A stretch of 64,000 nucleotides of DNA from Elusimicrobiota bacterium (GTDB lineage: Bacteria; Elusimicrobiota; Elusimicrobia; UBA1565; UBA9628): contig JACPFR010000010.1 in the NCBI GenBank assembly GCA_016182905.1, positions 62,001 to 126,000 on the forward strand, read 5' to 3'. Made by a program: the position numbers and the translations under genes. Below the pieces are notes generated by a model, which was given only the letters and a program-made list of their open reading frames with translations, searched no databases and had not been told where the DNA came from. This document shows positions 43,118 to 63,360 of this stretch, in pieces (the stretch's first letter is position 1; every line of letters starts with the position of its first letter).

Positions 43118-43822
43118 ATGACCGAAATCAGGGTTAAGTTCGATTTGACCTTCAGCCGGCGCGTGATCGTCGCCATGGGCGCCTTCGCGATGATGCTCTG
43201 CGCGGTCCCGGAGTTGGACTCGGAGAGCGTCACCTTGTCCACCTACTACCCGGCGCCTTCCGGCGTGTACACGAAAATGATCACGACGGGGGACACGACC
43301 TTGGCCCGCGACGGCGGCATGGTCGGCATCGGAACGACCGCCCCCAACGAGAAGCTCACCGTCATCGGCCGCGGCGTCTTCACGGATAAGGTCTACGCCG
43401 CGGGATATTACGGCACCGGCGCCGGCGGCGTGAACAGCTACTCGATGGAGGTCGGCGGCCCCGGCCCGACCTCGGTCAACGGCAACGCGACGCTCTTCCT
43501 GCACCATCACGGGGTCATCGCGCATCAGCTGCGCTACACGAACGGCGACCTCAACCTGGAGTCCGCGGGCAACGGGTACGGAACCAACGTCTCGCCTAAT
43601 TTTTTCGCGGGGGGGAACCTCGTCACCCGCGCCGGCCAGGCGGGTTACGGCAGCTGCACGATGACGACCTACGGCCTGGGCGTCCAGAACTGCCCGGCCG
43701 GCCGGTACGCCACGTTCACCAGCGGCGTGGTGACCAAGTGGCAGACGTCCGCCGGCACCACCGACCCCGGGGGAACGATGCTTTGCTGCGCCTGCCCGAC
43801 GAGCGGCTGCCCCAGCCTCTAG
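43118..43822 (+). CDS. Exported tail-fibre-like protein with Cys-rich C-terminus
   Basis: 234 residues. N-terminal hydrophobic segment (about 15-31, VIVAMGAFAMMLCAV), then SVTLSTYYPAPSGVYTKM and GMVGIGTTAPNEKLTV, the opening I associate with Elusimicrobiota tail-fibre/pilin-associated proteins. The middle is Gly/Asn-rich beta-type sequence. The C-terminus has several Cys (YGSCTMTTYG, NCPAGRYA, MLCCACPTSGCPSL). It is probably a surface protein. It stands just upstream of the Hxs-like cluster and shares a promoter type with it, so co-regulation is possible. Confidence 0.6.
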   Translation: MTEIRVKFDLTFSRRVIVAMGAFAMMLCAVPELDSESVTLSTYYPAPSGVYTKMITTGDTTLARDGGMVGIGTTAPNEKLTVIGRGVFTDKVYAAGYYGTGAGGVNSYSMEVGGPGPTSVNGNATLFLHHHGVIAHQLRYTNGDLNLESAGNGYGTNVSPNFFAGGNLVTRAGQAGYGSCTMTTYGLGVQNCPAGRYATFTSGVVTKWQTSAGTTDPGGTMLCCACPTSGCPSL

Positions 43823-43875: not shown

Positions 43876-44739
43876 ATGGCACTGCATCTCCCGGTCAACG
43901 GTGTCTGCAACATCAAGTGCGTTTTTTGCTCCTCCGAGGGCCGCGCCGGGACCTTCGCCCTCAAGTCGCTCCTCGATGAGATAGACCGGGACAGGACCGG
44001 CCACGTCCAGATCTCCGGCGGGGACCCGATGCTCAAGGACCCGGCCGAGCTTCTCGAGATCCTGCTCCATTGCCGCAAGAAGGGGAAGATCATCGAGTTC
44101 CAGACGAACGGGGTCCTTCTGACGCGCTACGACCCCAAGCGCCTCAAGCTGATCCGGGGCCTGGTGAACTTCTTCAACATCAACTTCTCCGCCCACGACG
44201 CCGCGCTCGACGTGCAGGTGACGGAGACTCCGGGCGCCTTCGATCTGCGCGTCGCGGGAGTCAAGCAGCTCATCGCGCAGGGCTCCAGGGTCCGGCTGAA
44301 CTACATCGTGCACGCGCTGAACTACCGCCATTGCGAGGATTTCGTGCGCTTCGCGGCGAAGGAGATGCCGGGCTTCGAGTGGATCCAGTTCAGCTACTGC
44401 AAGGGCATGGGCCGGGCCAAGGGCAACGAGCTCGTCATGCCCCGCTTCGAGGAGGCCGCCCCGTTCCTCAACGCCGCCTTCAAGGCCTGCGGCGAGAAGG
44501 GCGTCGATTTCGACGTGGACCACATCCCGGTGTGCTTCGTCATCGACCACCGGGAGCACCACGCCGATTACCGGAAGATGCGCGAGCACAAGCCCGGCGT
44601 CCACCTCGCGGAGAAGCAGCAGATCGCCGACTGCGACGGCTGCGTGATGCGCGAGGCCTGCCCGGGCCCGCGCCGCGACTATCTCGAGATCTACGGCGAG
44701 CTCAAGCCCATGCCGCTGGTCAAGGCGGTCCTCCCCTGA
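43876..44739 (+). CDS. Radical SAM protein, first gene of the Hxs-like cluster
   Basis: 287 residues. The 4Fe-4S motif CNIKCVFC (C11, C15, C18) starts almost at the N-terminus, followed by ISGGDPML and QTNGVLL strands of the radical SAM barrel. A C-terminal Cys set (CDGCVMREACPGP) suggests a twitch/SPASM-like auxiliary cluster. The sequence resembles the radical SAM genes at 46012 and 47280 (shared GAF...-N-YIVHALNYRH pattern). The substrate is unknown; context points to a peptide. Its stop overlaps the start of the cysteine-desulfurase-like gene. Confidence 0.82.
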   Translation: MALHLPVNGVCNIKCVFCSSEGRAGTFALKSLLDEIDRDRTGHVQISGGDPMLKDPAELLEILLHCRKKGKIIEFQTNGVLLTRYDPKRLKLIRGLVNFFNINFSAHDAALDVQVTETPGAFDLRVAGVKQLIAQGSRVRLNYIVHALNYRHCEDFVRFAAKEMPGFEWIQFSYCKGMGRAKGNELVMPRFEEAAPFLNAAFKACGEKGVDFDVDHIPVCFVIDHREHHADYRKMREHKPGVHLAEKQQIADCDGCVMREACPGPRRDYLEIYGELKPMPLVKAVLP

Positions 44740-46019
44740 CTCCCGCCTCCGCGGCCGCGGCCGCCTTCGACGTCGAGGCCGTCCGCGCCCTCTACCCGGC
44801 CCTCGGCCGGGAGATCGGCGGCAAGCGTCTCGTCTACCTCGACAGCGCGTGCACCGCGCTCAAGCCCGCCCGCGTCGCCGCGCGCCTCGCGGACTTCTAC
44901 GCGAACTGGGGCGGCTGCGGCGGGAAGCGCTCGACGCATCTGCTGAGCCAGCAGGTCGAGGACTGGTTTCAAGAGGCGCGGCGTTCCGCCGCTTCGTTCC
45001 TGAACGCCGAGACCCCCAACGAGATCGTCTTCACCTCCGGCACGACCGAGGCGGCGAACATCGTCTGCGGCGCCTTCCCGTTCGACGCCGAGCGCCGCAA
45101 GGTCGTCATCACCGACCTCGAGCATAACGCCGTCGCGCTCCCGTTCATGGAAGCAGCTCGAGCGGGCCGCTTGGAGCTCTCGATCTGCCCCACGGACGAG
45201 GGGCGGCTCGACCTCGACCGCCTGGCGTCGATGCTCGACGAGCGGACCGCGCTGCTGGCGATCACGCACGCGTCCAACGTGATGGGGGGCGTCGTCCCCG
45301 TCGCGGAGGCCGCGAAGCTGGCGCGCCGCAAGGGCGTCAAGGTCTTCGTCGACGACGCTCAGTACCTGGGCACCCATCGCGAGGACGTGTCCACGCTCGG
45401 CGCGGACTTCGTCGCGTTCTCCGCGCACAAGCTCGGCGGGCCCTTCGGCGTCGGCGTCCTGTGGGGCCACGAGACCGAGCTCAACCGCCTCAGGACCTGG
45501 AAGCTCGGCGGAGGGACCGTGAAGTCGGTCTCCTGGGACCTGGTGAGCGCGCCCGTGCCCGTCTATCTCGACGCGCCCGGGCGCTTCGAGGCCGGGGTGC
45601 AGAACTTCGGGGGGGCGATCGGCCTGCACGAGGCGCTCGAGGTCCGCGGATCCCTGCCCGCCGCGGGGCTGCGCGCCCACGTCGGCGGCCTCGTCCGGCG
45701 CCTGGCCGAGGGGCTGGCGAAGCTCGACGCGGTCCGCGTGCTCGGGCGGGTCGAGGACCTGGAGAAGGGCAGCCTGGTGACCTTCGCGGCCGCGCACGAC
45801 GACTTCTCCCCGGTGGACTTCAACCTTTTCCTGAACCACGAGCTGCCCGGGCGCTTCATCGCGATCCGCGTCGGGGAGCACTGCGCGCACCTGCAGCACA
45901 GGCGGCTCGGCGTCGACGCGACGGCGCGCGCCTCTCTCGGCGCGTACAACACCGCCGCCGAGGTCGACCTCTTCATCGACGCGGCGCGCGCGTACATCCG
46001 GGAGGCCTGCGGTGGCTGA
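44736..46019 (+). CDS. SufS-like cysteine desulfurase / class V aminotransferase
   Basis: 427 residues. Class V PLP fold with YLDSACTALKP, FTSGTTEAANIV, a HASNVMGGV-type strand, VDDAQYLG, PLP-Lys in SAHKLGGPFG, and the SufS-type catalytic Cys in RVGEHCAHLQHRRLG followed by ARASLGAYNT. It should mobilise sulfur from cysteine as a persulfide. No ATG, GTG or TTG lies near the conserved start; the best candidate is a CTG at 44736 overlapping the previous stop (CTGA). It may supply sulfur for the clusters of the many radical SAM enzymes or for modifying the peptide. Confidence 0.82.
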   Translation: MTPASAAAAAFDVEAVRALYPALGREIGGKRLVYLDSACTALKPARVAARLADFYANWGGCGGKRSTHLLSQQVEDWFQEARRSAASFLNAETPNEIVFTSGTTEAANIVCGAFPFDAERRKVVITDLEHNAVALPFMEAARAGRLELSICPTDEGRLDLDRLASMLDERTALLAITHASNVMGGVVPVAEAAKLARRKGVKVFVDDAQYLGTHREDVSTLGADFVAFSAHKLGGPFGVGVLWGHETELNRLRTWKLGGGTVKSVSWDLVSAPVPVYLDAPGRFEAGVQNFGGAIGLHEALEVRGSLPAAGLRAHVGGLVRRLAEGLAKLDAVRVLGRVEDLEKGSLVTFAAAHDDFSPVDFNLFLNHELPGRFIAIRVGEHCAHLQHRRLGVDATARASLGAYNTAAEVDLFIDAARAYIREACGG

Positions 46020-47283
46020 CGCTCCCCGGATCATGACGGAGCTGCCGAAGCTCGAGCGGATCGACCGCGAGAGCTTCGACGGCACGAAGTGCTTCGACAT
46101 CCTGCTCAACTACAACTGCTCGGCGAAATGCCTGTTCTGCTCCCAGGACTTCGAGTGGCGCAAGGAGCCCAACGACCTGCCCTTTGAGAAGGCCGTGGAG
46201 TTCATGTACATGGCTTACAAGAACGGCTATCGCCGCCTGGGCTTCACCGGCGGTGAACCGACCATCCGGCCGGAACTCCCCAAGCTCATCGCGCTGGCCA
46301 AGAAGATAGGCTACGGCTACGTGCGCATCCAGACGAACGGGATCCGCATCGCGGATTACGAGTACGCGAAGACGCTCAGGGACGCTGGACTGACCTTCGT
46401 GAAGTACTCGCTGCACGGCCACACGGCCGAGCTCCATGACAGATTGGTGGCCGTTCCCGGCGCCTTCGAGAAGAATCTCCGCTCGATCGAGAACCTCAAA
46501 AAACTGAACGTCGGCATCGGCGTCAACATCGTCTTGAACGAGCTGAACTATAGACATCTGGTCGAGTTCTACGAGCTGTTCCTGCTCAAGCTCCAGCTGT
46601 CGAACTTCGTGATCATCGCGCCCCTGTACGAGGGCAACATGAAGCTCAACGCGAAGGTCGGCGCCAAGATCGGCGTGACGATGACGGAGATCGCGCCGTA
46701 CATCAAGAAGGCCTACGAGGTCTTCACCAAGATCAACTACCCGAAGCCTCCTCTCCTCCTCCATTTCACGCCCTGCGTCCTGCCCGGCTACGAGCAGCAG
46801 ATGCTGGGCTGGTCCGCCTTCAACACGATGGTCGTCAATCCTCTGGGCGAGAAGCGCGACCTCGACCAGACGGCGCAGGCGCACACGATGAAGACCGACG
46901 AGTGCAAGAAGTGCGTCTACAACGACCGCTGCATCGGCTGGGACGCGAGCTACGCGCGCTACTTCGGCACCGACGAGATCAAGCCGATCCTCGAGGTCCC
47001 CGAGCGCTACGACGCCCGCGCGCCGCGCATGGAGAAGCACGAGGGCCGCGGCGGCGTCCTGACCGACAACGAGCAGTGCGTGCTCGAGGTCCTCAAGATC
47101 AAGAACAACGTCACGACCAAGCAGTTCCTCGCCGTGGCCGAGTCCCTCCCGCTGTGCAAGGACTGCAAGGACGAGAACGCGGTCATCCACGCCGCGGAGA
47201 CCTTGATCAAGATGGGCGTCGTCGCGCGCGAGTTCGTGAAGGGCAAGTACCTGTGGTCGCTGAAAGGGGAGCTCCGCTCATGA
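46012..47283 (+). CDS. Radical SAM protein with C-terminal extension
   Basis: 423 residues from a GTG overlapping the previous gene by 8 bases. Motif CSAKCLFC (C36, C40, C43), GFTGGEPTIRPE and QTNGIRI follow. A CKKCVYNDRC set near 300 suggests an auxiliary cluster. The last 80 residues (from LTDNEQCVLEVL to YLWSLKG) look like a small winged-helix or recognition domain with a further CKDC pair. Role inferred: peptide modification within the cluster. Confidence 0.82.
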   Translation: MADAPRIMTELPKLERIDRESFDGTKCFDILLNYNCSAKCLFCSQDFEWRKEPNDLPFEKAVEFMYMAYKNGYRRLGFTGGEPTIRPELPKLIALAKKIGYGYVRIQTNGIRIADYEYAKTLRDAGLTFVKYSLHGHTAELHDRLVAVPGAFEKNLRSIENLKKLNVGIGVNIVLNELNYRHLVEFYELFLLKLQLSNFVIIAPLYEGNMKLNAKVGAKIGVTMTEIAPYIKKAYEVFTKINYPKPPLLLHFTPCVLPGYEQQMLGWSAFNTMVVNPLGEKRDLDQTAQAHTMKTDECKKCVYNDRCIGWDASYARYFGTDEIKPILEVPERYDARAPRMEKHEGRGGVLTDNEQCVLEVLKIKNNVTTKQFLAVAESLPLCKDCKDENAVIHAAETLIKMGVVAREFVKGKYLWSLKGELRS

Positions 47284-48227
47284 GCGACTGGACGCCGCCG
47301 CAGGGCGGGCGCACGCAGAAGCTGGTGCTCTTCACGGGCTTCTCCTGCAACAGCCACTGCCACTTCTGCATCGACCTCAACAAGCGCGACCTGCCGGACA
47401 AGTCCACGCGCCAGATCGTGGAGGAGATGGTCCAGGCCAAAGCCCAGGGCGTCGAGTACCTCGAGATGATCGGCGGCGAGACGACCATCCGCCGGGACTT
47501 CATCCCGCTGGTCAAGACCGCCAAGAAGCTCGGCTTCAAGGACATCGTCGTCGTGACCAACGGCCGCATGCTCGCGTATCCCGAGTTCGCGAAGGAGACC
47601 GTCGCGGCGGGAGTGACCGACCTCGTTTTCTCCGTCCACGGCCACGACGCCAAGCTGCACGACGAGCTGACGTACGCCGAGGGCTCGTTCGACGACCTCC
47701 TGAAGGGCATCGAGAACGTCCGGAAGGAGGGCCTGGAGCGCATCTTCGGGAACTGCACGGTCATCAAGCAGAACATGAGGCACCTGCCGGACATAGCCCG
47801 GCTTTTTTTGAAGCTCAAGATACACCACGTCGAGTATATCTTCGTCGACCCGACCTACGGCGGCGCCTACACCAACTTCAACGGCCTGGTGCCCCGTATC
47901 TCCGACGCAGCTCCGTTTATGAGAGAAGCGCTCGACATCGGCCGCGCCGGGGGGACCAAGGACTTCGTCGCCCGCTACGTCCCGCTGTGCCACTTCCCGG
48001 ACCACCTCGACCAGATCTCGGAGATCCGCGAGGTCGCGACCTTCCGCACGCGCCACTGGGCCCCGGACTTCAAGAACGACGACGTCGGGGCGGGCCGCGC
48101 GGTCGCCGGCCGCAGCAAGCCCGCGAAATGCGCCGGCTGCTCGCTGTTCGACCGCTGCGAGGGCGTCTGGAACGAGTACCTCAAGCGCGTCGGAGACGAC
48201 GAGCTCAAGCCCCTGGTCCATGCCTGA
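47280..48227 (+). CDS. Radical SAM protein
   Basis: 315 residues, ATG overlapping the previous stop. Motif CNSHCHFC (C23, C27, C30), MIGGETTIRRDF (GGE with Thr for the usual Pro), VVTNGRM, and a C-terminal CAGCSLFDRCEGVW. Related to its neighbours at 43876 and 46012 (shared HGH.A.LHD..T pattern). Its 3' end overlaps the HxsC-like gene. Confidence 0.82.
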   Translation: MSDWTPPQGGRTQKLVLFTGFSCNSHCHFCIDLNKRDLPDKSTRQIVEEMVQAKAQGVEYLEMIGGETTIRRDFIPLVKTAKKLGFKDIVVVTNGRMLAYPEFAKETVAAGVTDLVFSVHGHDAKLHDELTYAEGSFDDLLKGIENVRKEGLERIFGNCTVIKQNMRHLPDIARLFLKLKIHHVEYIFVDPTYGGAYTNFNGLVPRISDAAPFMREALDIGRAGGTKDFVARYVPLCHFPDHLDQISEIREVATFRTRHWAPDFKNDDVGAGRAVAGRSKPAKCAGCSLFDRCEGVWNEYLKRVGDDELKPLVHA

Positions 48228-49161
48228 CTTCCCGATCTGGCCTCAATGCAATATCGCGTGCGTGTTCTGCTCGAACCCGGTCGAGGGCTTCCGGCACACG
48301 ACGGACAAGTATTCCCTCAACGAGCTCAAGAAGAAGCTGGCCGACTACAAGTCCGGCCTGCGCACCTTCGTCAAGTTCGACGAGGAGCGCGACTACTTCA
48401 ACCTGACCGGCGGCGAGCCGACGAACCACCCCGATTTCCTGAAGCTGCTCGCCCACATCCGCACCGAGTTCCCGCGGAACCTGATCCGCCTGCTCAGCAA
48501 CGGGCGCATGTTCGCCTACGAGGATTTCGCGCGGCGGACCTGCGGCATCGGCCAGCACCCGTTCGAGATCGCGGTGCCGATGTTCGGCCCGACGGCGGCG
48601 ACGCACGAGAGCACCTCTCGCACCCCCGGGAGCTTCGCTCAGACGACGCTCGGCCTGCGTCACCTTCAGCGGCACCGCAAGCCCGGACAGCTCGTCGAGA
48701 TCCGGATCATCATGACGAAGGTGCAGGCGCGCTACCTCGACGGCTTGCTGGACTTCCTGCTCGCCGAGTTCCCATGGGTCGACCGCGTCGTCTTCCTGTT
48801 CGAGGAGATCGAGGGCTTCGCGGAGCAGTACAAGGGCCAGCTGAAGTTCACGCAGTCCGAGTGCTCCGCTCATCTCGACCGCAACTACGAGAAGCTCAAG
48901 CGCTTCAAGGACGCCCGCCTCTACCACTTCTCGCTGTGCACGGTGCCGACCCGGCTGTGGCCCTTCGTCTGGAACACGCTCGCGGGGTTCAAGGTGACGT
49001 ACCAGGAGGGCTGCCGGACGAAGTGCGCGTACAAGGCCCAGTGCGTCGGCGTCCATCGCAGCTACATCAAGCACATGGGCGCGCCCGACATCGCCCCCAT
49101 CGTCGAGCCGCGCGCGGTGACCCTGACCGGCGATCCCTTCCACCCGGTGGACGCGGCGTGA
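48220..49161 (+). CDS. hxsC: Radical SAM protein, HxsC-like maturase
   Basis: 313 residues. Motif CNIACVFC (C10, C14, C17), NLTGGEPTNHPDFL, LLSNGRMF, then PGSFAQTTLGLRHL and VEIRIIMTK, VFLFEEIEGFA, FSLCTVPTRLWPF and a Cys-rich end with CRTKCAYKAQC. This block order matches my memory of the His-Xaa-Ser system maturase HxsC, though the protein is somewhat short because it begins almost at the Cys motif. It directly precedes HxsD-like genes, as expected in Hxs loci. A profile search would settle the family. Confidence 0.65.
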   Translation: MPDFPIWPQCNIACVFCSNPVEGFRHTTDKYSLNELKKKLADYKSGLRTFVKFDEERDYFNLTGGEPTNHPDFLKLLAHIRTEFPRNLIRLLSNGRMFAYEDFARRTCGIGQHPFEIAVPMFGPTAATHESTSRTPGSFAQTTLGLRHLQRHRKPGQLVEIRIIMTKVQARYLDGLLDFLLAEFPWVDRVVFLFEEIEGFAEQYKGQLKFTQSECSAHLDRNYEKLKRFKDARLYHFSLCTVPTRLWPFVWNTLAGFKVTYQEGCRTKCAYKAQCVGVHRSYIKHMGAPDIAPIVEPRAVTLTGDPFHPVDAA

Positions 49162-49580
49162 AGGCCCTCGTGCGCCTGCCGTCCGTCGACGAGGAGGCCC
49201 TGCTGGGGGCGGCCTACGTCATGACGGAGGACGCGTACGTCCTCGTGAGCCGCAAGGGAAAGGGCGGGGCGGTCGAGCTCTGGCCCAAGAAGAAGGCCAA
49301 GCCCGCGGCCCTGGCGGCGGCGTTCCGCCGCGAGTACGCGAACCAGGTCCTGCGCTGGTCGTTGACGCGGGACGGCCTCGGCCTGCGCGCGGAGACCCTG
49401 CGCCGCGCCCTGCTGCTGGCCGAGGCGGCGGGCGGCCGCGCCGAGGCGCCGCCGGCCTCGCTGACGCCGGAGCAGAAGGCCGAGATCGCGGCCCTGCTGG
49501 CCGAGGCCGACGCCGACACGGGCCCGCGGGATCCGCTGGGCATCACGGTGCCGTGGGAAGAATCCCGGAAGGACCGATGA
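49158..49580 (+). CDS. HxsD-like small protein, alpha subtype
   Basis: 140 residues, GTG start overlapping the previous stop. The N-terminal two-thirds are a small alpha/beta domain (LLGAAYVMTEDAYVLVSRK, AAFRREYANQVLRWSL, LRAETLRRALLLAE). It is paralogous to the gene at 51274: both end with a DP.GI....WEE motif (DPLGITVPWEES here). The region FRREYANQVLRW aligns loosely with the LLNQEYR helix of the HxsD-like genes. Probably a partner protein, not an enzyme. Confidence 0.6.
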   Translation: MKALVRLPSVDEEALLGAAYVMTEDAYVLVSRKGKGGAVELWPKKKAKPAALAAAFRREYANQVLRWSLTRDGLGLRAETLRRALLLAEAAGGRAEAPPASLTPEQKAEIAALLAEADADTGPRDPLGITVPWEESRKDR

Positions 49581-49978
49581 GGATCTCAAGGGGCGCCGTC
49601 GTCCTCACGCTCGGCAAGCCGCTGTACGGCGCCGAGGCGCTCGCGGCCGGAGCGCTGACGCTGGGCACGCGCGCCCAGGTGTTCGTCGCCGAGACGAAGT
49701 CGGCGTTCTCCGTCGAGATCAAGCCGGCCGCGAAGCTCCCTCCGGAACGGCTGCTCGCGCTCGGGGGGGAGTTCCTCAACGAGGCCCTGAACCACGAGTA
49801 CCGCCAGCGGGTCGTGCGCGCGAACGCGCCCCTGACCCAGGCCGTGCTCGCCCCGCTGTTCGCCAAGGGCTTCCCGGCTGTTCCCGCCGACCCGCTCGAG
49901 GAGCTCGAGCCTCAGGTGAAGGCCGACCGCGCGCGGGACCTCGCGGAGCTGCTGGCTCAGGCCCGGAGCATGAAGTGA
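49577..49978 (+). CDS. hxsD: HxsD-like protein
   Basis: 133 residues, ATG in an ATGA overlap with GGAAGGA just upstream. The core QVFVAETKSAFSVEIK followed by GGEFLNEALNHEYRQRV matches the HxsD pattern (a short sheet, then a helix of the LLNDYxLRE kind). It is a paralogue of the gene at 53372. HxsD is a conserved small partner of the HxsB/HxsC maturases, of unknown mechanism. It is placed directly before the catalytically dead HxsB paralogue. Confidence 0.68.
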   Translation: MRISRGAVVLTLGKPLYGAEALAAGALTLGTRAQVFVAETKSAFSVEIKPAAKLPPERLLALGGEFLNEALNHEYRQRVVRANAPLTQAVLAPLFAKGFPAVPADPLEELEPQVKADRARDLAELLAQARSMK

Positions 49979-51216
49979 GCAGGCTCACCTCGTTCGAAAA
50001 GCCGCCGAAGGCGCGGGCCGGCGCGGCCGCGCCTCACCAGTATCGCCTCCTGGGCGAGAAGGTGCTGATCGCCGACGAGCACGGGCGATGGGCGCTGCTG
50101 ACGCGTCCGGAGTACGACCGCTTCGTCGCCGGGATCGGGCCGTCGGACCCGCTGTGGCCGGTCCTGCAGCCGCGCGGCTTCCTGGCCGGGGCCTTCGACT
50201 TCGACGCCGCCGCCCGCCGCCAGTTCGAGCGGGGCCTGCTTTCGTGGAAGGGCCCGGGCTTGCATGTCCTTCTGCTCGACGGCGCCGCCGGCGCGATGGA
50301 TCTCGACGCGGCGCGCGCGACGGTGGACTTCGTCTTCTCCTGCCCGGGGCCGCAGCTCACGCTCGAGCTCGTCTTCGACGACGCGGACGCGGTCTGGCCC
50401 GTGGTCTGGTTCATCGTGCAGTACGCCCGGCGCAAGGGCGAGTGGTCGCGGCGCCCGGTGTTCCTGATCGCGCGGGCGCGGACGATGTCGCCGGATCGCG
50501 CGGATTTCCTCCGCTCGCACGGCGTGACGCGCCGCGCCGTCCTCGAGCTCGACGGGAAGCCCGACATGGGCAAGGCTCCGGCCTTCCGCGCGCAGCGCGC
50601 GCTCGCGCGCCTCGGCTCCGGCGCCGCGGAGCCGGCGGCGTGGGCGCGGTGGTTCGAGAAGTGGGGCTTCGAATCGGCGCGCCTGATCCCCGCGTCCCTC
50701 GACGAGGAAGGCGCGGCGGCCTTCGCGGAGTTCCACTCCGGCTTCCTCTCCTGGCTGGTCGAGCATGGGGAGGGCGTCAACCTGCGCGACGAGTGGGTCC
50801 TCGGCCTTCTCGGCGGACGGCTGTGGGACCTGCCCGGCATGGACGTCCTCGAGCAGCTCGCGTACGACGGGGCGGGGACGGTGTACGCCTCGGAGGAGGC
50901 GGCCGGCGACGCGGAGCTCGCGCTCGGCTCGATCGCGACCTTGCGCTACCGCGACCTCCCCGGCCTTCCCGCGACCGGCGCGGTGATCGCCGCGAGCCAC
51001 CCCGACGATCAGCCTCTGTGCTCGCAGTGCGCGTACCGGCCGTTCTGCGCGGTGCCGCCCTCGATCAATAAAAAACAACAAGGCAGCCTCTGGGGGCAGA
51101 CGCCGTCGAGCGCCGCGTGCTCGGTCCAGATGGGAATAATGGACCGTATTTTGGAAAGCCTGAATGACGAAAAATGCTTGAATCTGTTGAATAAATGGAG
51201 TGTTGACATGGTGTGA
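49975..51216 (+). CDS. HxsB paralogue lacking the radical SAM cluster motif
   Basis: 413 residues, GTG start (GTGA overlap). It aligns with the HxsB-like proteins at 51849 and 53814 through the N-terminal domain (LIADEHGRWALLTRPEYDRFVAG), LSWKGPGLHV, WPVVWFIVQYAR and the C-terminal CSQCAYRPFC cluster. The stretch that should hold CNxxCxYC is replaced by LLDGAAGAMDL, about 18 residues shorter, and GGEPLLNW has become FDDADAVW. So both the 4Fe-4S ligands and the GGE motif are gone while both ends remain. I read it as a pseudoenzyme, perhaps a recognition or scaffold subunit. The gene is intact. Confidence 0.8.
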   Translation: MSRLTSFEKPPKARAGAAAPHQYRLLGEKVLIADEHGRWALLTRPEYDRFVAGIGPSDPLWPVLQPRGFLAGAFDFDAAARRQFERGLLSWKGPGLHVLLLDGAAGAMDLDAARATVDFVFSCPGPQLTLELVFDDADAVWPVVWFIVQYARRKGEWSRRPVFLIARARTMSPDRADFLRSHGVTRRAVLELDGKPDMGKAPAFRAQRALARLGSGAAEPAAWARWFEKWGFESARLIPASLDEEGAAAFAEFHSGFLSWLVEHGEGVNLRDEWVLGLLGGRLWDLPGMDVLEQLAYDGAGTVYASEEAAGDAELALGSIATLRYRDLPGLPATGAVIAASHPDDQPLCSQCAYRPFCAVPPSINKKQQGSLWGQTPSSAACSVQMGIMDRILESLNDEKCLNLLNKWSVDMV

Positions 51217-51231
51217 CTATCCTGCTACACT
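51203..51231 (+). promoter_or_regulatory. Near-consensus sigma70 promoter inside the cluster
   Basis: TTGACA (51203-51208) and TACACT (51226-51231) with a 17-base spacer, starting in the last codons of the HxsB paralogue. It should drive the second module from 51274 on, giving a leader of about 36 bases. Nearly identical in design to 43071-43099. Confidence 0.7.
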
Positions 51232-51236
51232 TTCGC

Positions 51237-51252
51237 GAAGGCCGCAGCCTTC
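51237..51252 (+). other. Perfect hairpin at the predicted 5' end of the second-module mRNA
   Basis: GAAGGC-CGCA-GCCTTC, 6-bp stem and 4-base loop, begins about where transcription from the 51203 promoter would start. It could stabilise the mRNA 5' end or bind a regulator. No T-run follows, so it is not a terminator. Confidence 0.45.
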
Positions 51253-51273
51253 CCTAATAGTTCAGGATTTGGA

Positions 51274-51849
51274 ATGAAATCAAAGAAGAAAACCGCCGTA
51301 AAAGCCTCCAAGATTTCGCCGAAGAAGAAGCCCTCCGCCGCCGCTCCCAAGATCTCCGCCGCCGAAGTCGAGATATCCCTCGACGTGAAGACCGACGGTC
51401 TCGAGCCCGTCTTCGGCGCCGCCTATCTGATGATGGACAAGGCCTACGTCGCGCTGTCGGGCGATCGCGCCGCGAAGGTCGTCGTGACCCTTCGCGCGAA
51501 GGATCCGAAGGCGGTCAAGCCCAAGGCGCTCGCCGACGAATTCCTGTCCGACCTCGCCTCGCAGAAGGTCCGCTGGGCCATCTCCAAGAACAATCTTCCC
51601 ATCCGCGAGTTCGTCGCGGAGCAGGCCGTGCTCATCGCCAACGGGACCGTGCCGCCGCCGTCCGCCGCGCAGGCGGCGCCGGAGCCCGCCGCCGAGGAGC
51701 TGACCGACGATCAGCGCGCCGAGATCGAGAAGCTGATCGCGGAGGTCGAGTCCGAGATCAAGACGATGAACGAGAAGAAGTCCGTCTTGGACCCGAAGGG
51801 CATCAAGGCCTCGTGGGAAGAAAAGCAGGAGCAGGGGAACAAGGCCTGA
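51274..51849 (+). CDS. HxsD-like small protein, alpha subtype, Lys-rich N-terminus
   Basis: 191 residues. The first 30 residues are strongly basic (MKSKKKTAVKASKISPKKK), like the start of the HxsA precursor. The core (FGAAYLMMDKAYVALS, ADEFLSDLASQKVRWAI, IREFVAEQAVLIA) and the end (LDPKGIKASWEEK) pair it with the gene at 49158. An acidic helical stretch (TDDQRAEIEKLIAEVESEI) lies between. First gene of the second module, with its own promoter and weak AGGA Shine-Dalgarno. Likely a partner or carrier protein. Confidence 0.6.
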   Translation: MKSKKKTAVKASKISPKKKPSAAAPKISAAEVEISLDVKTDGLEPVFGAAYLMMDKAYVALSGDRAAKVVVTLRAKDPKAVKPKALADEFLSDLASQKVRWAISKNNLPIREFVAEQAVLIANGTVPPPSAAQAAPEPAAEELTDDQRAEIEKLIAEVESEIKTMNEKKSVLDPKGIKASWEEKQEQGNKA

Positions 51850-53375
51850 TGAGCCGCCTCACCGCGCTGGCGAAGGGCGCCGCCGTCGAGACGGGGAACC
51901 TTTCCGCGTTCAACTTCCGCGACATGGGCGGCTGGCATCTGCTGACGAACGACTGGGGCCAGTTCCTGATGGTGTCGACGGAGGATTTTCACCGCTTCAT
52001 GGCCGGCGAGGTCGAGCCCGCCGATCCTCTCTACCCCGAGCTCGAGAGCCGCGGCTTCCTGAAGGCCCGCCTCGATTTCCGGCAGCTGGCCGCGAACGTG
52101 GTCAAGAAGAGCTCGTTCCAGTGGTTCCCCGGGCCGAGCCTGCACATGATCGTCGTGACGCTGCGCTGCAACCAGAAATGCCAGTACTGCCACTCGAGCG
52201 TCGTCGACCCGTCGCGCACCGACACCGACATGGACATCGCGACGGCCAAGAAGACCGTCGACTTCATCTTCTCGACGCCGAACCCGACGGTCTGCATCGA
52301 GTTCCAGGGCGGCGAGCCGCTGCTGAACTGGCCGGTCGTGAAGTTCATCACGGAGTACGCGCAGGCGAAGGCGAAGGCCGGCGACCGCAAGCTGCTGATG
52401 GCGCTGGTCTGCAACTTCACTTTGATGACCGAGGACAAGCTCGACTTCCTCTTCGACCATCACGTCTCGATCTGCACCTCCCTCGATGGACCGGCGGAGC
52501 TGCATAATAAGAATCGCCCGTTCCTCGGCGGCGGCGAGGCCCAGCCGAAGGTCGTGCATTGGCTCGAGAAGATCCAGGAGCGCTGCAGCGCCGACCCGAA
52601 GAAGAAGTACTACCTCCCGGGCGCGCTGATGACGACGACGCGGTTCTCGTTCGACTACGGCCCGCAGATCGTCGACCTGTACGTGAAGCTCGGCCTCGAG
52701 CAGATATTCCTGCGGCCGCTGTCGCCGATCGGCTACGCGAAGCGCGTGTGGAAGGACGTCGGCTACGAGGCCGATGAGTTCGTCCGCTTCTACGAGGATA
52801 CGCTCGACTACATCATCGACCTCAACGTCTCCGGCAAATCCGACATCATGGAGCGCATGGCCCTGATCCTGCTCAGCAAGATCGTCAAGGGCGAGGACCC
52901 CGGCTTCATGGACCTGCGCTCGCCCGCGGGCGCGGTGCTCGGCTGCCTCGCGTACAACTACAACGGGCAGATCTTCGTCAGCGACGAGGGGCGCATGGTG
53001 GACCACCAGGGCGACCCGATCTTCAACGTCGGCGACGTGGCCAAGAACGACTGGCTCTCCGTCATCGACCACCCGACGACGCGCGCCTGCGTGACCGCGT
53101 CCACGCTCGACAACCAGCCGATGTGCCAGCAATGCGCGTACAAGCCGTACTGCGGCGTCGAGCCCGTCTTTCATTACGAGACGCAGAAGAGCGTCTTCGG
53201 CCAGATGCCCACGAGCGGCTGGTGCGTCTCCCACATGGGCGTCTTCGACGTGATCTTCCGCAAGCTGCGCGACCCGCGCGCGCGCAAGGTGATGGACAAG
53301 TGGCTCGAGCGGGACCAGTGCCGCTGGCAGGAGAGCGGGAACGTCCCCGCCGGCGAACCGGAGGTCGTGCGATGA
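51849..53375 (+). CDS. hxsB: Radical SAM maturase HxsB
   Basis: 508 residues, ATG overlapping the previous stop. The N-terminal domain (HLLTNDWGQFLMVSTEDFHRFMAGE) is typical of HxsB and may bind substrate. The radical SAM motif is CNQKCQYC (C107, C111, C114), with FQGGEPLLNW at 152-161 and SLDGPAELHNKNR. The C-terminal part has YNYNGQIFVSDEGRMV and CQQCAYKPYCGVEP for an auxiliary cluster, as in SPASM proteins. It is the most canonical HxsB of the three copies. In Hxs systems HxsB acts with HxsC on the His-Xaa-Ser repeat protein; the product chemistry is not known to me. Confidence 0.8.
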   Translation: MSRLTALAKGAAVETGNLSAFNFRDMGGWHLLTNDWGQFLMVSTEDFHRFMAGEVEPADPLYPELESRGFLKARLDFRQLAANVVKKSSFQWFPGPSLHMIVVTLRCNQKCQYCHSSVVDPSRTDTDMDIATAKKTVDFIFSTPNPTVCIEFQGGEPLLNWPVVKFITEYAQAKAKAGDRKLLMALVCNFTLMTEDKLDFLFDHHVSICTSLDGPAELHNKNRPFLGGGEAQPKVVHWLEKIQERCSADPKKKYYLPGALMTTTRFSFDYGPQIVDLYVKLGLEQIFLRPLSPIGYAKRVWKDVGYEADEFVRFYEDTLDYIIDLNVSGKSDIMERMALILLSKIVKGEDPGFMDLRSPAGAVLGCLAYNYNGQIFVSDEGRMVDHQGDPIFNVGDVAKNDWLSVIDHPTTRACVTASTLDNQPMCQQCAYKPYCGVEPVFHYETQKSVFGQMPTSGWCVSHMGVFDVIFRKLRDPRARKVMDKWLERDQCRWQESGNVPAGEPEVVR

Positions 53376-53821
53376 AGAGGACGCTGTCGAAGAAGATCTA
53401 CTCCAAGGACGCGCTGCTCATCGCGGCGCAGGTCCTCTCGAACAAGATCAACGTCTATCTCGAGGAATCGAAGTCCGCTTACACGGTCACGATCGAGGCC
53501 AAGCGCCGCGGCGTCGACCAGGCCCAGCTGGCCGCGCTGGCCGGGGAGTTCGGCAACGAGCTTCTGAACCAGGAGTACCGCTTCCTCGTCGGCCGCTTCA
53601 ACTCGAAGATCTCGAGCCTGATCGTGACGCAGACCTTGATGGCCGCGCGCGGCGGCGAGACGCCCGCCGCCGCGCCCGCCGCGGAGGGGACGCCCGAGTT
53701 CAAGAAGCTCGTCGCGGACCTGGTCAGGAACGCGGAGGCCGAGGTCGCCCGCACGATGCCGAGGAAGATCCCGGACCAGGGCACGGTCCTGCCGCCGGTG
53801 AAGGAGGACGCGGGTGTCTAG
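53372..53821 (+). CDS. hxsD: HxsD-like protein
   Basis: 149 residues, ATG in an ATGA overlap. Core INVYLEESKSAYTVTIEAK, then AGEFGNELLNQEYRFLVGRF, the clearest LLNxxYxLR-type HxsD motif in the window. The tail is Ala/Pro-rich, then a charged helix. Paralogue of 49577. It lies between the two intact HxsB copies and overlaps the second, so each active HxsB copy is directly adjacent to an HxsD-like gene. Confidence 0.72.
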   Translation: MKRTLSKKIYSKDALLIAAQVLSNKINVYLEESKSAYTVTIEAKRRGVDQAQLAALAGEFGNELLNQEYRFLVGRFNSKISSLIVTQTLMAARGGETPAAAPAAEGTPEFKKLVADLVRNAEAEVARTMPRKIPDQGTVLPPVKEDAGV

Positions 53822-55244
53822 GCTGACGGAGCCCGCCGGCGTCCTCGAGGCCTCGCCGTCGAAGGTCGCGGCCCACAACGCCCGGACGGTCGGCTCCTCC
53901 GTCCTGATCACCAACGACGTCGGCGAGCACGCGCTCCTCTCGCCCGCCGACTACGCGTCGTACCTCGCCGGCCGTCACGAGACGCCGGAGCTCGTCAAGA
54001 AGGACTTCATCCGCGACCAGCACGAGTTCGGCCATCTGGCGGACCGCACCGTGGCCCGCAACCTGCTCGACTGGAAGGGCCCCAACGTCCACACCGTCGT
54101 CGTCACGCTGCGCTGCAACTTCAAGTGCCTGTACTGCCACGCGAGCGTCGTCGGCCAGGAGCGGACCGACAAGGACATGAGCGTCGCGACCGCGAAGGCG
54201 GTCGTCGACCTGATCTTCCAGAGCCCCAACCCGAACCTGATGATCGAGTTCCAGGGCGGCGAGCCGCTGCTCAACTGGCCGGTCGTCAAGTTCATCGTGC
54301 AGTACGCGCGCGAGAAGAACAAGCATCACAAGCGCGCCCTGCACTTCGGGCTCATCTCCAACTTCAGCCTGCTCGACGACGCGAAGATCGATTTCCTCGT
54401 CGCCAACGGCGTCTCCTTCTGCACCTCGCTCGACGGCCCGAAGGACCTGCACGACAAGAACCGGATCTATCTCGGCGGCAACAGCCACGAGAGCGTGCTG
54501 GTCGGCCTCCAGAAGGTCCTCGCGCGCAAGGCGGCCGGCGCGAAGACGGACACGCCGAACGCCATCTGCACGATCACCCGGCACTCGCTCGGCCGCGCGC
54601 CGGAGATCGTCGATCAGCTGGTCGCGCTGGGCCTGGAGCGCATCCAGTTCGGCCCGCTCGACCCGATCGGCTTCGCCAAGAAGAGCTGGGGCACGATCGG
54701 CTACTCCTCGGCGGAGTTCGTCGAGTTCTACTCGGACGCGCTCGACTACATCATCGCGCTCAACAAGAAGGGCGTGAAGGCGTACGAGAAGATGGCGCTC
54801 ATCTTCATCATCCGCATCCTCGAGGGCGGCCACTGGCGCTTTCCCAACGCCGACGGCGTGGCGCGCCTGGCCTACGACCACGACGGCTCGGTCTACACCT
54901 GCGAGGAGGGCCGCCTGCTCGCCAACGAGGGCGACGAGTTCTTCAAGATCGGCCACGCCGCGACCTCGGCGTTCTCCGACTTCCTGGACCACCCGACGGT
55001 GCGCGCGAGCCTGCTCGCCTCGAGCTCGAACGCCCAGCCGATGTGCTTCCACTGCGCGTACAACCCTTTCTGCAGCGTCCTGCCGGTGTACAACCAGGGC
55101 ACGCAGGGCGGCGTCTTCGGCCGCATGCCGGACAACGGCTGGTGCGAGAAGATGATGGGGCTTTTCGACGTCGTTTTCACGAAGCTGCAGGATCCGGAGG
55201 CCAGGAAGGTCCTTGAGTCCTGGCTCGAGTATAAATCGCGGTAG
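53814..55244 (+). CDS. hxsB: Radical SAM maturase, second HxsB copy
   Basis: 476 residues, GTG start with AAGGAGG upstream. N-terminal LITNDVGEHALLSPADYASYLAG, radical SAM motif CNFKCLYC (C101, C105, C108), FQGGEPLLNW at about 146-155, SLDGPKDLHDKNR, and C-terminal CFHCAYNPFCSVLP. Same family as the gene at 51849. Differences include an extra Cys (YTCEEGR where the other has FVSDEGR), which may change auxiliary cluster ligation. It lies 19 bases before the precursor gene. Confidence 0.8.
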   Translation: MSRLTEPAGVLEASPSKVAAHNARTVGSSVLITNDVGEHALLSPADYASYLAGRHETPELVKKDFIRDQHEFGHLADRTVARNLLDWKGPNVHTVVVTLRCNFKCLYCHASVVGQERTDKDMSVATAKAVVDLIFQSPNPNLMIEFQGGEPLLNWPVVKFIVQYAREKNKHHKRALHFGLISNFSLLDDAKIDFLVANGVSFCTSLDGPKDLHDKNRIYLGGNSHESVLVGLQKVLARKAAGAKTDTPNAICTITRHSLGRAPEIVDQLVALGLERIQFGPLDPIGFAKKSWGTIGYSSAEFVEFYSDALDYIIALNKKGVKAYEKMALIFIIRILEGGHWRFPNADGVARLAYDHDGSVYTCEEGRLLANEGDEFFKIGHAATSAFSDFLDHPTVRASLLASSSNAQPMCFHCAYNPFCSVLPVYNQGTQGGVFGRMPDNGWCEKMMGLFDVVFTKLQDPEARKVLESWLEYKSR

Positions 55245-55263
55245 CGCCGCGGAGGGATAGAGC

Positions 55264-55782
55264 ATGGCCAAGAAGACTCCGAAGAAGGGGAAGAAGTCGA
55301 AGAAGCCCCAGCTGTTGCCTCAGATCAAGAAGGACGCCTCGGTGTTCCTGAGCTCCGAGGAAGGCAAGATCACGAAGGAGAACGTCATCAAGACGGCGGC
55401 GGCGCTCGGCATCATCGGCGCGGCCCTGCTCAAGGCGACGCCCGCTCCGGCCGCGCACTCGAACTACCTGCACAACTCCGGCGGCACGGGCTCCCATACG
55501 AGCCACGGCTCGCACGGGTCGCACGGGTCCCACGGGTCCCACGGGTCTCACGGCTCGCACGGCTCGCACGGGTCCCACGGGTCTCACGGCTCGCACGGCT
55601 CGCACGGGTCCCACGGCTCGCACGGCTCGCACGGGTCCCACGGGTCCCACGGCTCGCACGGCTCGCACGGGTCCCACGGCTCGCACGGGTCCCACGGCTC
55701 GCACGGGTCCCACGGCTCGCACGGGTCCCACGGCTCGCACGGCTCCCACTGCCGCGGCGGCTGGTGTAATCCGCGCTGCTAA
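55264..55782 (+). CDS. hxsA: His-Xaa-Ser repeat precursor HxsA, (SHG)27 with Cys tail
   Basis: 172 residues. Lys-rich start ([14 protein letters not shown]), a helical leader (24-56) ending in the hydrophobic GIIGAALL, an Ala/Pro hinge, then 27 exact Ser-His-Gly triplets (residues 80-160), and a tail [12 protein letters not shown] with Cys at 163, 168 and 172. Read as His-Gly-Ser this is the HxsA pattern. GGAGGG precedes the ATG. It is the only precursor-like gene among eight radical SAM enzymes, so it is the obvious substrate. The repeats may bind metal if unmodified; the Cys tail is a second possible target. Confidence 0.82.
55501..55743 (+). repeat. 9-base tandem repeat encoding (SHG)27
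   Basis: 27 in-phase units of 9 bases. At DNA level the units fall into blocks: A = GGCTCGCAC, B = GGGTCCCAC, C = GGGTCTCAC, D = GGGTCGCAC. The order A D B B C A A B C A A B A A B B A A B A B A B A B A shows a repeated BCAA 36-base block and a terminal (AB)4 18-base run. This indicates recent expansion by slippage or unequal crossover while the peptide is held constant. Confidence 0.9.
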
Positions 55783-55800
55783 GGGCCCGCGTATGGGCGT

Positions 55801-56907
55801 ATGGGGAAACTCGATCATCTGGCCGTCTACCTGTCCGATAGCTGCAACTTGGCCTGCAGCTATTGCTACGTAGCGGTCAACCAAGGTCCCGGCGCCCGCC
55901 TCGGCTTCGAGCAGATCAAGGCGGCGATCGACGAGTTCTGCTCGAAGCTGCCCCCGGAGGAGCGGAAGATCACCTTCATCGGGGGCGAGCCGCTCCTCGA
56001 CTGGCCCCTGTTCGTGAAGGCAGCGCGCTACGCGCGCGAGAAGGCCGGAGAGCGGGCGGTCCTGCAGACCTTCACCAACGGCACCTTGCTCACCCCGGAG
56101 AAGGCCGCGTTCATGCGGGACGTCGGCGTCCACTGCACGATCAGCCTCGACGGGCGCAAGGAGGACAACGACAAGCACCGGGTCTACTTCAAGACGAAGG
56201 AGCGTTCCGTCCACGACGACGTGATGGCCCGCCTGGCGCCGTTGGACAAGTCGAACCTCGGCGTGAGCCTGGTCTTCACCGCGCACACCGTCGACCGCCT
56301 GCTCAGCAACGTCGACGCCTTCTACCGCGCGGGCTTCGGCCGCATCACCTTCAATCCCGAGCTGTACGAGGTCTGGCCGGAGGCCAAGATCGCCGTTATG
56401 CGCAAGGCCCTCTCCGGCCTGGCGCGCTGGTACAAGGCCGTCCTCGACTCCGGCGCGCGCGCGCCGCAGCTGCAGATCCTCTTCGCCGTCCTCGAGTCCC
56501 TCGAGCACAACCGCGCCGGCGAGCGCTGGTGGCACTCCTGCCACAACATGACGCTCGGGCCCGACGGGAAATACTACTCCTGCGACAAAGCCCTCTCCTT
56601 CCCCGTCGGGACCGCCCCGGCCTTGCGCGCCGGCTCCCCGGGGACGGGCATGGACTGGGACGGCGCCGCGAAGCAGATCGACGGCTTCGTGGACTGGATC
56701 GAGCGGCGAGGCGGCGGGGACCAGGAGGTCTTCTGCCCGATCGGCGTCGTCGCCCACGCCCGCATCGCGGGACGCGACCCCGACGCGGCGCTGGCCAACT
56801 TCCGGCGCGTCGCCGCCGTCTTCGCCGAGGGGCTCTCCGAGCTCGTCGACTCGTGCCAGGACCATCCGCAGTTCCAGGAGCTCTATGTCCGCGTCCGCGT
56901 CGTCTGA
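55801..56907 (+). CDS. Radical SAM/SPASM-like protein downstream of HxsA
   Basis: 368 residues. Motif CNLACSYC (C15, C19, C22) near the N-terminus, [14 protein letters not shown], and [14 protein letters not shown], the SPASM-family anchor. C-terminal Cys residues ([33 protein letters not shown]) can ligate auxiliary clusters. It starts 18 bases after hxsA and shows no obvious Shine-Dalgarno. It may be a second-stage maturase for the array or Cys tail. I do not assign it to HxsC. Confidence 0.8.
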
Positions 56908-58042
56908 TCTGGACGCCGCCTACGGGCCCAAGGCGCTCGAGCGTCTGCGCGCGCGGGGCCTCGCGTCGAACAAGGAGATCCGCCGCTTCAAGGTGGCGAT
57001 CAACACCGCGTGCCCGCTGCGCTGCGAGTACTGCTTCATCGACAAGGACTCCGGCGAGACCATCGCCTGGAAGCACGTCGAGAACCTCGTCCGCTTCCAG
57101 CTGTCTTCGCCGGGCCAGGTCAAGAAGCTTTTGCTGTACGGCGGCGAGCCGTTCATGAACTTCGAGATCGTGCGCGAGATCTCATTGTTCGCGCGCGCGG
57201 AGGCCCTCAAGGCGGGCAAGGACCTCGACCTGTCCATCTGCACGAGCGCGGGCCTGCCGATCAAGAGGGAATGGCTCGAATTCCTCGCCGCGCAGCGCTT
57301 CTTCATCTCCGTGAGCATGGACGGCGACGAGCAGACTCACGACAAGCGCCGCGTGCTGAAGGGGGGCGGCGGCTCGTGGAAGAAGATGCTGCCCGCCCTG
57401 CCGGCGATCTTCGACACGATCGGCAGGCGCCGCGCGATGGCGATCCAGTGCGTGCACCCCGACAACGTCGAGAAGATGCTCGACAACTTCAAGACGCTCG
57501 CCGGACTCGGCTTCGAGAACATCGAGATCGAGGTGATCCACGGCTTCGGCTGGAAGGACGCGAAGCGGCATTTCCGTCCGATGCTGCGGAAGGTGTTCGA
57601 GTGGATCTGGCAGGAGGCTCACGAGGGCCGCTTCCGCTTCGTGGTCTGCTCCCTGGTGCCGCTCATGCTCAAGGAGGCCGTCGTCCTCGAGGATTGGTGC
57701 CCGTTCCATTCTTCCATGGAGACTTATCCCGACGGGAACTTTTCTTTCTACCCCTTCGCGTTCGTGGATCGGGAAGGCCGCGAGAGAGCGAAGGTGGGGA
57801 GCGCCGCGGAAGGCGTGCCGGAACGCTACCGGGACTGCACCTTCGACCTGGCCTCGGATCCGTGCAGGACCTGCACCTCGGATTATTACCGCGATCCGGC
57901 GGTGAACGAGGGCAACGATCCCTATCGCTGGCGCACCGAGATGGCGCGCGCCTTCATGGAACGGGCGGCGCTCGCCGCGAAGAGCGACCCGGTGATGCGC
58001 GCCTACTTCAAGGAAGCGATGATCCGCTGCCGGATCAGCTGA
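56885..58042 (+). CDS. Radical SAM/SPASM-like protein, last gene of the cluster
   Basis: 385 residues. Motif CPLRCEYC (C43, C47, C50), LLLYGGEPFMNFEIV, SMDGDEQTHDKRR, and C-terminal Cys (EDWCPFHSSMETYPDGNFSFYPF, RDCTFDLASDPCRTCTSDYY) that fit SPASM auxiliary clusters. It overlaps the preceding gene by 23 bases, the longest overlap in the cluster, so the two are probably partners. Its 3' end overlaps the convergent TPR gene by 40 bases. Confidence 0.8.
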   Translation: MSASASSDLDAAYGPKALERLRARGLASNKEIRRFKVAINTACPLRCEYCFIDKDSGETIAWKHVENLVRFQLSSPGQVKKLLLYGGEPFMNFEIVREISLFARAEALKAGKDLDLSICTSAGLPIKREWLEFLAAQRFFISVSMDGDEQTHDKRRVLKGGGGSWKKMLPALPAIFDTIGRRRAMAIQCVHPDNVEKMLDNFKTLAGLGFENIEIEVIHGFGWKDAKRHFRPMLRKVFEWIWQEAHEGRFRFVVCSLVPLMLKEAVVLEDWCPFHSSMETYPDGNFSFYPFAFVDREGRERAKVGSAAEGVPERYRDCTFDLASDPCRTCTSDYYRDPAVNEGNDPYRWRTEMARAFMERAALAAKSDPVMRAYFKEAMIRCRIS

Positions 58043-62601: not shown

Positions 62602-63360
62602 ATGATGAGGGAACGTGGATTCGCGCTGTTCGCCGCGCTGGTCCTGGCGGCGGCGTCGAGCGCCCGGCCGGCGGCCGCGCAGGCCCTGGTCGCGAGGTGC
62701 GACGCGGCGCTGGCCGCCGCGGACGAGATGCTGAATAAGGTCGCCGAATGCTCGAGCGGGCTGCAGGCCGGGGCGTTCGAGGCGGGGGGCGGTCCCGCGG
62801 AGGCCCAGCTGCTTCACCGTATCCGTTCCTACGCCGGCGTCGCGGGCTACCTCGAAGACGTCCCGAATCCTTGCGCGAAGCTGGCCGACGACGCGGTGCC
62901 CCGGGACGTCGAGCAGTGCCAGGTTTTTTTCAGAGGCCTGCGGGGCGGCGCCGCCGCGTGTAAAAAACTGCCGGCCATTTCCGCCGTCCTTTGCCGCGAC
63001 GCCGCGGCTTACGCGCTGGCCTCCAAGGCCGGGAACTCCGCCGCGTGCGGCCGCTCGGCGCGGTGCCGCGTCCTGATGGGAGAGGCTCCCCCGGCCGCGC
63101 CGGCGAAGCCCGCGGACTTCAGGGGCTTCGTGTGCCAGGCGCCGATCCAGTCGCCCGAGAACTGGAAGGCGGTCAACGGCGCGATCAGCCACGCCCAGTT
63201 GTGCCTGACGGATCTGGAGACCGCCATGGCGAAGGTCGAACGCCCCGTCGCGCTCGCCCTGGATGAGCGCGCGGAGCGGCTCGCCCGGCTGCGGCTGAGC
63301 CTGAACGCGCATTTCGCGGCGGCCGAGACGCCGGGGCCGCGGCCCGCTCGAGCCCCCTAG
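62602..63360 (+). CDS. Exported Cys-containing hypothetical protein
   Basis: 252 residues; AAGGAG precedes ATGATG. Signal peptide ends near ARPAAAQA. The mature part is helical with about ten Cys (ARCDAAL, AECSSG, NPCAKL, EQCQVFF, AACKKL, VLCRDA, SARCRVL), similar in composition to the gene 21 bases upstream. The two probably share an operon and a compartment. Function unknown. The stop is 4 bases from the convergent TPR gene. Confidence 0.65.
   Translation: MMRERGFALFAALVLAAASSARPAAAQALVARCDAALAAADEMLNKVAECSSGLQAGAFEAGGGPAEAQLLHRIRSYAGVAGYLEDVPNPCAKLADDAVPRDVEQCQVFFRGLRGGAAACKKLPAISAVLCRDAAAYALASKAGNSAACGRSARCRVLMGEAPPAAPAKPADFRGFVCQAPIQSPENWKAVNGAISHAQLCLTDLETAMAKVERPVALALDERAERLARLRLSLNAHFAAAETPGPRPARAP

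Follow-up and report, generated by a model that had tools for sequence, protein, structure and literature searches.

We analyzed a window of 64,000 nucleotides from an uncultured Elusimicrobiota bacterium (assembly GCA_016182905.1, contig JACPFR010000010.1, positions 62,001 to 126,000), which carries an hxs gene cluster at positions 43876-58042. The prediction of Hxs systems from sequence dates back over ten years. In this cluster 15 genes, all on the plus strand, encode a (Ser-His-Gly)27 precursor of the HxsA4 class, two HxsB proteins that score above the curated cut-off and a third without the radical S-adenosylmethionine (SAM) cysteines, four HxsD-like, four HxsC-like and two PapB-like proteins, and a SufS-like cysteine desulfurase (Table 1). 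Most likely the operon, with its eight radical SAM enzymes, is devoted to remodelling one secreted (Ser-His-Gly)27 peptide.

An initial annotation of the same DNA had listed 15 same-strand genes, a (Ser-His-Gly)27 precursor, eight radical SAM proteins and a desulfurase, all of which were recovered here. The CX3CX2C motif is intact in r1, r3, r4, r5, B1, B2, r14 and r15. As had been proposed, most neighboring genes overlap (11 of 14 junctions), although the overlaps span 1-23 bases rather than 1-20; at the remaining three junctions the genes are separated by 57 bases (after 51216), 19 bases (after 55244) and 18 bases (after 55782). Genes were called with a gene finder trained on cluster genes, and self-training on the longest open reading frames (ORFs), which picked antisense frames at 70% GC, was discarded.

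The suggested survey of relatives also supported the annotation, as the gene order recurs among Elusimicrobiota and the homologous clusters contain HxsA. The same order is found in at least seven other contigs. Within the genus it is kept in three genomes (G007, G011 and G017) and, in part, at contig ends in three more (G005, G010 and G013). G020, from another genus, and a metagenome-assembled genome from peatland (L085) also have it. Between the window and G007, the ratio of nonsynonymous to synonymous substitution rates (dN/dS) is 0.03-0.30 for all 15 genes, indicating purifying selection. This ratio and the recurring gene order show that the operon is not a chance assembly: precursor, HxsB, HxsD and the extra radical SAM genes form a conserved unit under selection. 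Named relatives are Elusimicrobiota, the phylum in which the initial annotation had suggested a survey; more distantly related HxsA4 loci come from Patescibacteria, a Woesearchaeote, a Spirochaete and Myxococcota.

Table 1 Genes of the hxs cluster and its upstream neighbor, with positions in the window and profile matches.
Gene	Position	Strand	Product and motifs	Profile match
up	43118..43822	+	secreted/anchored protein; hydrophobic N-terminal segment, ESVTLSTYYPAPSGVYT motif, Cys-Cys near C-terminus	
r1	43876..44739	+	radical SAM, HxsC-like; CNIKCVFC, C-terminal CX2CX5C	TIGR03977 77 bits, cut-off 267.9
desulfurase	44736..46019	+	SufS-like cysteine desulfurase	TIGR01979 314.7 bits, cut-off 475.1
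r3	46012..47283	+	radical SAM, HxsC4/HxsC-like; CSAKCLFC	NF038332 116 bits, cut-off 500
r4	47280..48227	+	radical SAM, HxsC4/HxsC-like; CNSHCHFC	NF038332 142 bits, cut-off 500
r5	48220..49161	+	radical SAM, nearest HxsC; CNIACVFC	TIGR03977 164 bits, cut-off 267.9
Da	49158..49580	+	HxsD-like; C-terminal DPLGI..PWE	TIGR03976 19.9 bits, cut-off 50; independent HxsD model 76 bits
Db	49577..49978	+	HxsD-like, second subtype	no NCBIfam match; independent HxsD model 41 bits, E 5e-13
Bx	49975..51216	+	HxsB without radical SAM Cys loop; N-terminal domain and SPASM Cys kept	TIGR03978 89 bits, C-terminus only
Dc	51274..51849	+	HxsD-like; DPKGI..SWEE C-terminus	TIGR03976 37.0 bits, cut-off 50
B1	51849..53375	+	HxsB radical SAM/SPASM maturase; CNQKCQYC	TIGR03978 474.9 bits, cut-off 370
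Dd	53372..53821	+	HxsD-like, second subtype	TIGR03976 48.6 bits, cut-off 50
B2	53814..55244	+	HxsB radical SAM/SPASM maturase; CNFKCLYC	TIGR03978 409.7 bits, cut-off 370
HxsA4	55264..55782	+	precursor	NF038313 133.1 bits, cut-off 55
r14	55801..56907	+	radical SAM, PapB-like; CNLACSYC	NF047865 118.8 bits, cut-off 340
r15	56885..58042	+	radical SAM, PapB-like; CPLRCEYC	NF047865 92.1 bits, cut-off 340

The precursor and the link between r15 and the RGGWC tail

HxsA4 consists of a Lys-rich N-terminus, a leader (FLSSEEGKI...), a hydrophobic segment with A-x-A, 27 uninterrupted Ser-His-Gly units (nucleotides 55501-55743) and a Cys-containing tail. The tail supplies the invariant cysteine of an otherwise Cys-poor precursor, and type I tails have gained further cysteines. 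As the match to NF038313 lies above the cut-off, this precursor class had already been named by NCBI curators (HxsA4). The repeat is spelled by several different 9-base codings and is thus maintained at the protein level rather than as a pure DNA repeat. We rejected DNA slippage as its origin on the basis of the varied codons and a protein dN/dS of 0.03.

HxsA precursors have the leader and the repeat in common and end in a few fixed tail types, among them GGWC, GQW-like, HFSF and SGT. Forty-nine loci contain HxsB and a tail; with matches above 100 bits counted as homologs, r15 is present in all 11 loci with a GGWC tail compared with 0 of the 38 with other tails. In the HxsB tree the tail switches four times, and the presence of r15 switches along each time. 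The 15 r15-type proteins form a clade (Shimodaira-Hasegawa-like approximate likelihood ratio test, SH-aLRT, 98), all from GGWC-tail loci, and 16 of the 17 members of the r14 clade come from such loci. One locus (L156) retains the GGWC tail and the enzymes even though its repeat is mainly HGN, not SHG. In family f2, part of the array is present with another tail (GSHFSF) and without r14 and r15.

Since the r15 threshold was chosen after the fact, a later search used r15 alone across 295 genomes of the phylum, and precursors were then sought in the surroundings of the matches. All 19 precursors found this way, from family f8, end in [S/A/Q]RGGWC. Genome-wide, no r15 match at E 1e-15 was obtained in five genomes with GQW-like, HFSF or SGT tails (G002, G006, G012, G023 and G024). 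The r15-RGGWC link survived this prospective test and is the most useful new result; r15 keeps to one tail without exception, in different families and also outside the main Elusimicrobiota clade.

HxsB and HxsD-like proteins, with a conserved HxsB copy without the cysteine loop

The profile check proposed with the initial annotation placed HxsA4 and two HxsB proteins above their cut-offs, whereas the HxsC-like proteins fell below theirs, three HxsD-like proteins did not reach the TIGR03976 cut-off and Db was unmatched. The described set of HxsB and HxsD-like proteins is present; it comprises four HxsD-like members, and the roles of one HxsB copy and of two radical SAM proteins had not been separated. 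An independent HxsD model, for which only loci of other cluster types were used, recovered exactly Da, Db, Dc and Dd from all window proteins, with E values from 2e-30 to 5e-13. The predicted structure of Dc (predicted local distance difference test, pLDDT, 90.5) has a beta-alpha-beta-beta-alpha order followed by C-terminal helices. This is a common arrangement, and comparison with the PDB gave weak matches only (Pcc1, KH, Rpb11 and ferredoxin-like folds; none with E<=0.001, Z<=7), so we make no functional claim for HxsD from its fold. The HxsD profile had no match among PDB sequences.

Bx lacks CX3CX2C in the window protein and in all orthologs, the Cys loop being deleted, while its SPASM cysteines 349, 352, 358 and 382 are invariant or nearly so among orthologs. 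Plain decay was rejected as the loss of the loop is conserved and dN/dS is 0.22. The AlphaFold2 model (pLDDT 88.8) aligns with the thioether maturase CteB (5WHY) over residues 19-398, including the N-terminal domain, with Z 24.8 over 345 residues and a root mean square deviation of 3.9. The most plausible reading of Bx is that of a conserved partner without catalytic activity.

HxsC-like enzymes, the desulfurase and the upstream gene

None of the four remaining radical SAM proteins reaches a curated cut-off, the best matches being those of r5 to HxsC and of r4 to HxsC4. They are related to these families and below the cut-offs; we therefore call them HxsC-like and class the cluster as a variant. 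The last two radical SAM proteins of the operon, r14 and r15, are not HxsC-like and have PapB as their best match, again below the cut-off. Downstream of r15, at a distance of about 6.5 kb and on the opposite strand, lies a further radical SAM gene (L042:606-1547; C10:126606-127547, minus), which is related to r3 with a score of 175 bits; in relatives, such a gene is located within the cluster.

The desulfurase has no ATG, GTG or TTG start near its N-terminus, and its start is likely the CTG at 44736, overlapping the preceding stop. The SAHK lysine and the G[ED]HCA cysteine are conserved in six orthologs, and the window protein carries the same motifs (GEHCAH). A separate housekeeping SufS above the curated cut-off is encoded elsewhere in the genome (C13).

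The cluster was first delimited at 43876-58042, where the 15 genes indeed lie, but a probable sixteenth member, up, lies upstream of these limits and would be the first gene of the operon. This genome has only two copies of up, one beside each of its two hxs clusters. In 42 hxs loci the gene lies upstream of the first HxsD, at a distance of no more than 9 kb; 11 loci, mostly outside Elusimicrobiota, lack it. It matches no Pfam family, carries conserved cysteines and evolves fast, with a middle part too variable for a useful model. That up is an hxs-only gene was rejected: standalone copies exist in relatives without hxs clusters, so up is associated with hxs and not exclusive to it.

Downstream of the cluster the window contains a tRNA-Trp gene (cca; 62992-63067). 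Further along, L042:11279-14998 has genes that by sequence resemble those for an acyl carrier, an acyl-CoA dehydrogenase, an AMP-ligase and a flavin halogenase, and probably represents a separate natural-product cluster.

Larger and related clusters

The phylum holds remarkably large same-strand radical SAM arrays around a single apparent peptide. In family f8 (L186-L225), arrays on a single strand extend over about 38 kb and surround one HxsA with an RGGWC end, and the three most complete arrays have 12-16 intact radical SAM genes each, plus a desulfurase. In some type I relatives (L047:4376-13476, L048/L049, L085 and L087), the operon is extended by a fusion of tetratricopeptide repeats and radical SAM (~1260 aa), by a further pair of radical SAM genes and by a flavoprotein that resembles Trp-halogenase (PF04820, 101 bits), the last of interest because the tail holds an invariant tryptophan. 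The proposal of a larger, multi-step variant is supported, but the precursor class already bore a name and the cluster is one of several large hxs arrangements in the phylum, some of them larger.

At the same chromosomal site (window 39585-42486 and L050), G006 has a GQW-tail cluster in place of the type I cluster of some genomes, and the aldehyde dehydrogenase and aminotransferase genes beside it are 80-87% identical to those of the window. This sequence comparison suggests cassette replacement, that is, the exchange of whole hxs cassettes.

The second hxs cluster of the window's own genome is of the GQW-tail type (G000:C5 ~248880-251291, L040) and is accompanied by many other radical SAM genes. 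A frameshift in the HxsA repeat of this second cluster, due to either an assembly error or a real phase change, extends the ORF to 803 aa. HxsA-like precursors from Myxococcota/Deltaproteobacteria (L131-L141) combine (SHG)n with GSW tails; most had no HxsB match in the flank at the thresholds used.

A model for peptide maturation and its alternatives

We consider it fairly probable, going by sequence, that the operon produces one secreted ribosomally synthesized and post-translationally modified peptide (RiPP) of the HxsA4 class in several radical SAM steps, with HxsB/HxsD acting on the repeat and r15, with r14, on the tail. Leader binding would fall to the N-terminal domain of HxsB, to HxsD or to both, after which the pairs Dc-B1 and Dd-B2 would alter the Ser-His-Gly repeat. 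We assign these proteins to the repeat because HxsA, HxsB and HxsD are common to nearly all HxsA4 loci, whatever the tail. From the tested association we propose that r15, with r14, acts on the (C)RGGWC tail at the C-terminus and most likely forms a bond at the conserved cysteine, in the manner of related PapB-type enzymes. Bx, with Da and Db, may be a docking or leader-binding subunit. In the weakest part of the model, r1, r3, r4 and r5 might make further changes, and the desulfurase might provide the sulfur that their clusters, or the product, contain. Since the operon encodes no transporter or peptidase, the peptide would be exported via its own signal-like hydrophobic segment, which ends in A-x-A ahead of the mature part.

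Several points weigh against this model. Our literature search found no chemistry or characterized product for any Hxs system, and nothing specific on Elusimicrobiota radical SAM clusters or PapB substrates. The HxsC-like, PapB-like and SufS-like members all lie under curated family cut-offs. The first r15 count relied on limited flanks as well as on a score threshold set with the data in view, and four independent tail switches cannot reach 0.05 by sign test; five r15 loci from the r15-only search, on contigs of G291, G148, G251, G122 and G283, had no HxsA in the DNA covered. The RGGWC motif might be no more than a tag for recognition or sorting. The alignment behind the Bx model is rich in intact HxsB, and its CteB-like fold is thus partly expected.

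It is possible, though doubtful, that the desulfurase and the extra HxsC-like enzymes represent Fe-S supply and redundant duplicates, the product then being a minimal Hxs product plus the tail change. The SufS-type catalytic residues of the desulfurase would suit supply to eight cluster-bearing enzymes, and several SGT-tail clusters have relatives of r1, r3, r4 and r5 without a desulfurase. However, the genome has its own SufS, and r1, r3, r4 and r5 are distinct, conserved one-to-one in order and under low dN/dS.

The tail itself leaves room for another explanation, which we regard as unlikely: GGWC would be a tag for r15 docking, export or anchoring, and r15 would act elsewhere on the peptide. 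Its position at the extreme C-terminus, its shortness and its rigid conservation are tag-like, and association alone cannot tell a site from a tag. Yet PapB/SPASM-class enzymes, such as ranthipeptide and sactipeptide maturases, act on cysteine, which is precisely what the tail supplies and what type I tails have gained further.

Eight radical SAM enzymes are many for one simple repeat, and up, with its conserved cysteines and fast evolution, precedes 42 hxs loci; the set might also modify the up protein or distant precursors, leaving HxsA4 as one of several substrates. This seems quite improbable: up also exists by itself where a genome has no hxs cluster, and the 15 enzyme and precursor genes remain joined in one unit. 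Finally, we see only a very slight chance that the HxsC-like module and the desulfurase add sulfur to the repeat. The product would then be a secreted poly-(thio)histidine polymer whose C-terminus is closed by an r15-made Cys crosslink; if true, this would represent a new class of radical SAM product, and desulfurases would gain a new role in RiPP biosynthesis.

Across these loci, the HxsA precursors form a series with the same leader and repeat and with different tails, each with its own enzyme set. The r15-tail link points to a five-residue site for one enzyme, and part of a long-unsolved peptide system is now directly testable.

Comparison with known systems

Overall, the cluster is a real, conserved form of a known but chemically uncharacterized system; new are the conserved operon, the conserved Cys-less HxsB, the tail types, the r15-tail link, the relatives with 12-16 genes and the leading up gene. 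With HxsABCD (TIGR03976/03977/03978; HxsA4 NF038313) it shares a precursor with a leader and a repeat of H-x-S period, HxsB above the cut-off, an HxsD-like protein adjoining HxsB and an HxsC-like radical SAM enzyme. It differs in carrying HxsB in three copies, of which one lacks the Cys loop, HxsD-like and HxsC-like proteins in four copies each and PapB-like proteins in two, along with a desulfurase; further differences are the HxsC scores below the cut-off and the C-terminal Cys tail.

The PapB ranthipeptide maturases (NF047865) are the best NCBIfam match of both r14 and r15 and likewise have cysteine in the substrate region. In contrast to PapB, r14 and r15 score far under the 340-bit cut-off, have a reduced SPASM Cys set and face a tail without an Asp/Glu partner. 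Among solved structures, the SCIFF thioether maturase CteB (PDB 5WGG/5WHY) comes closest to B1 and r14 in sequence and to Bx in fold, but Bx lacks the CX3CX2C loop and the substrates are unrelated. The desulfurase resembles SufS (TIGR01979) in its class V fold and in retaining the pyridoxal phosphate lysine and the catalytic cysteine; unlike SufS, its gene belongs to a peptide-maturation operon, and the genome has a housekeeping SufS in addition.

HxsB and HxsC fall in separate network clusters and no Hxs product is described in PMC9062424. The repeat RiPP system TvgA/TvgB from the same study is similar in that a radical SAM enzyme alters a repeat core many times, but its chemistry converts valine to cyclopropylglycine and the enzymes are unrelated to those of the hxs cluster.

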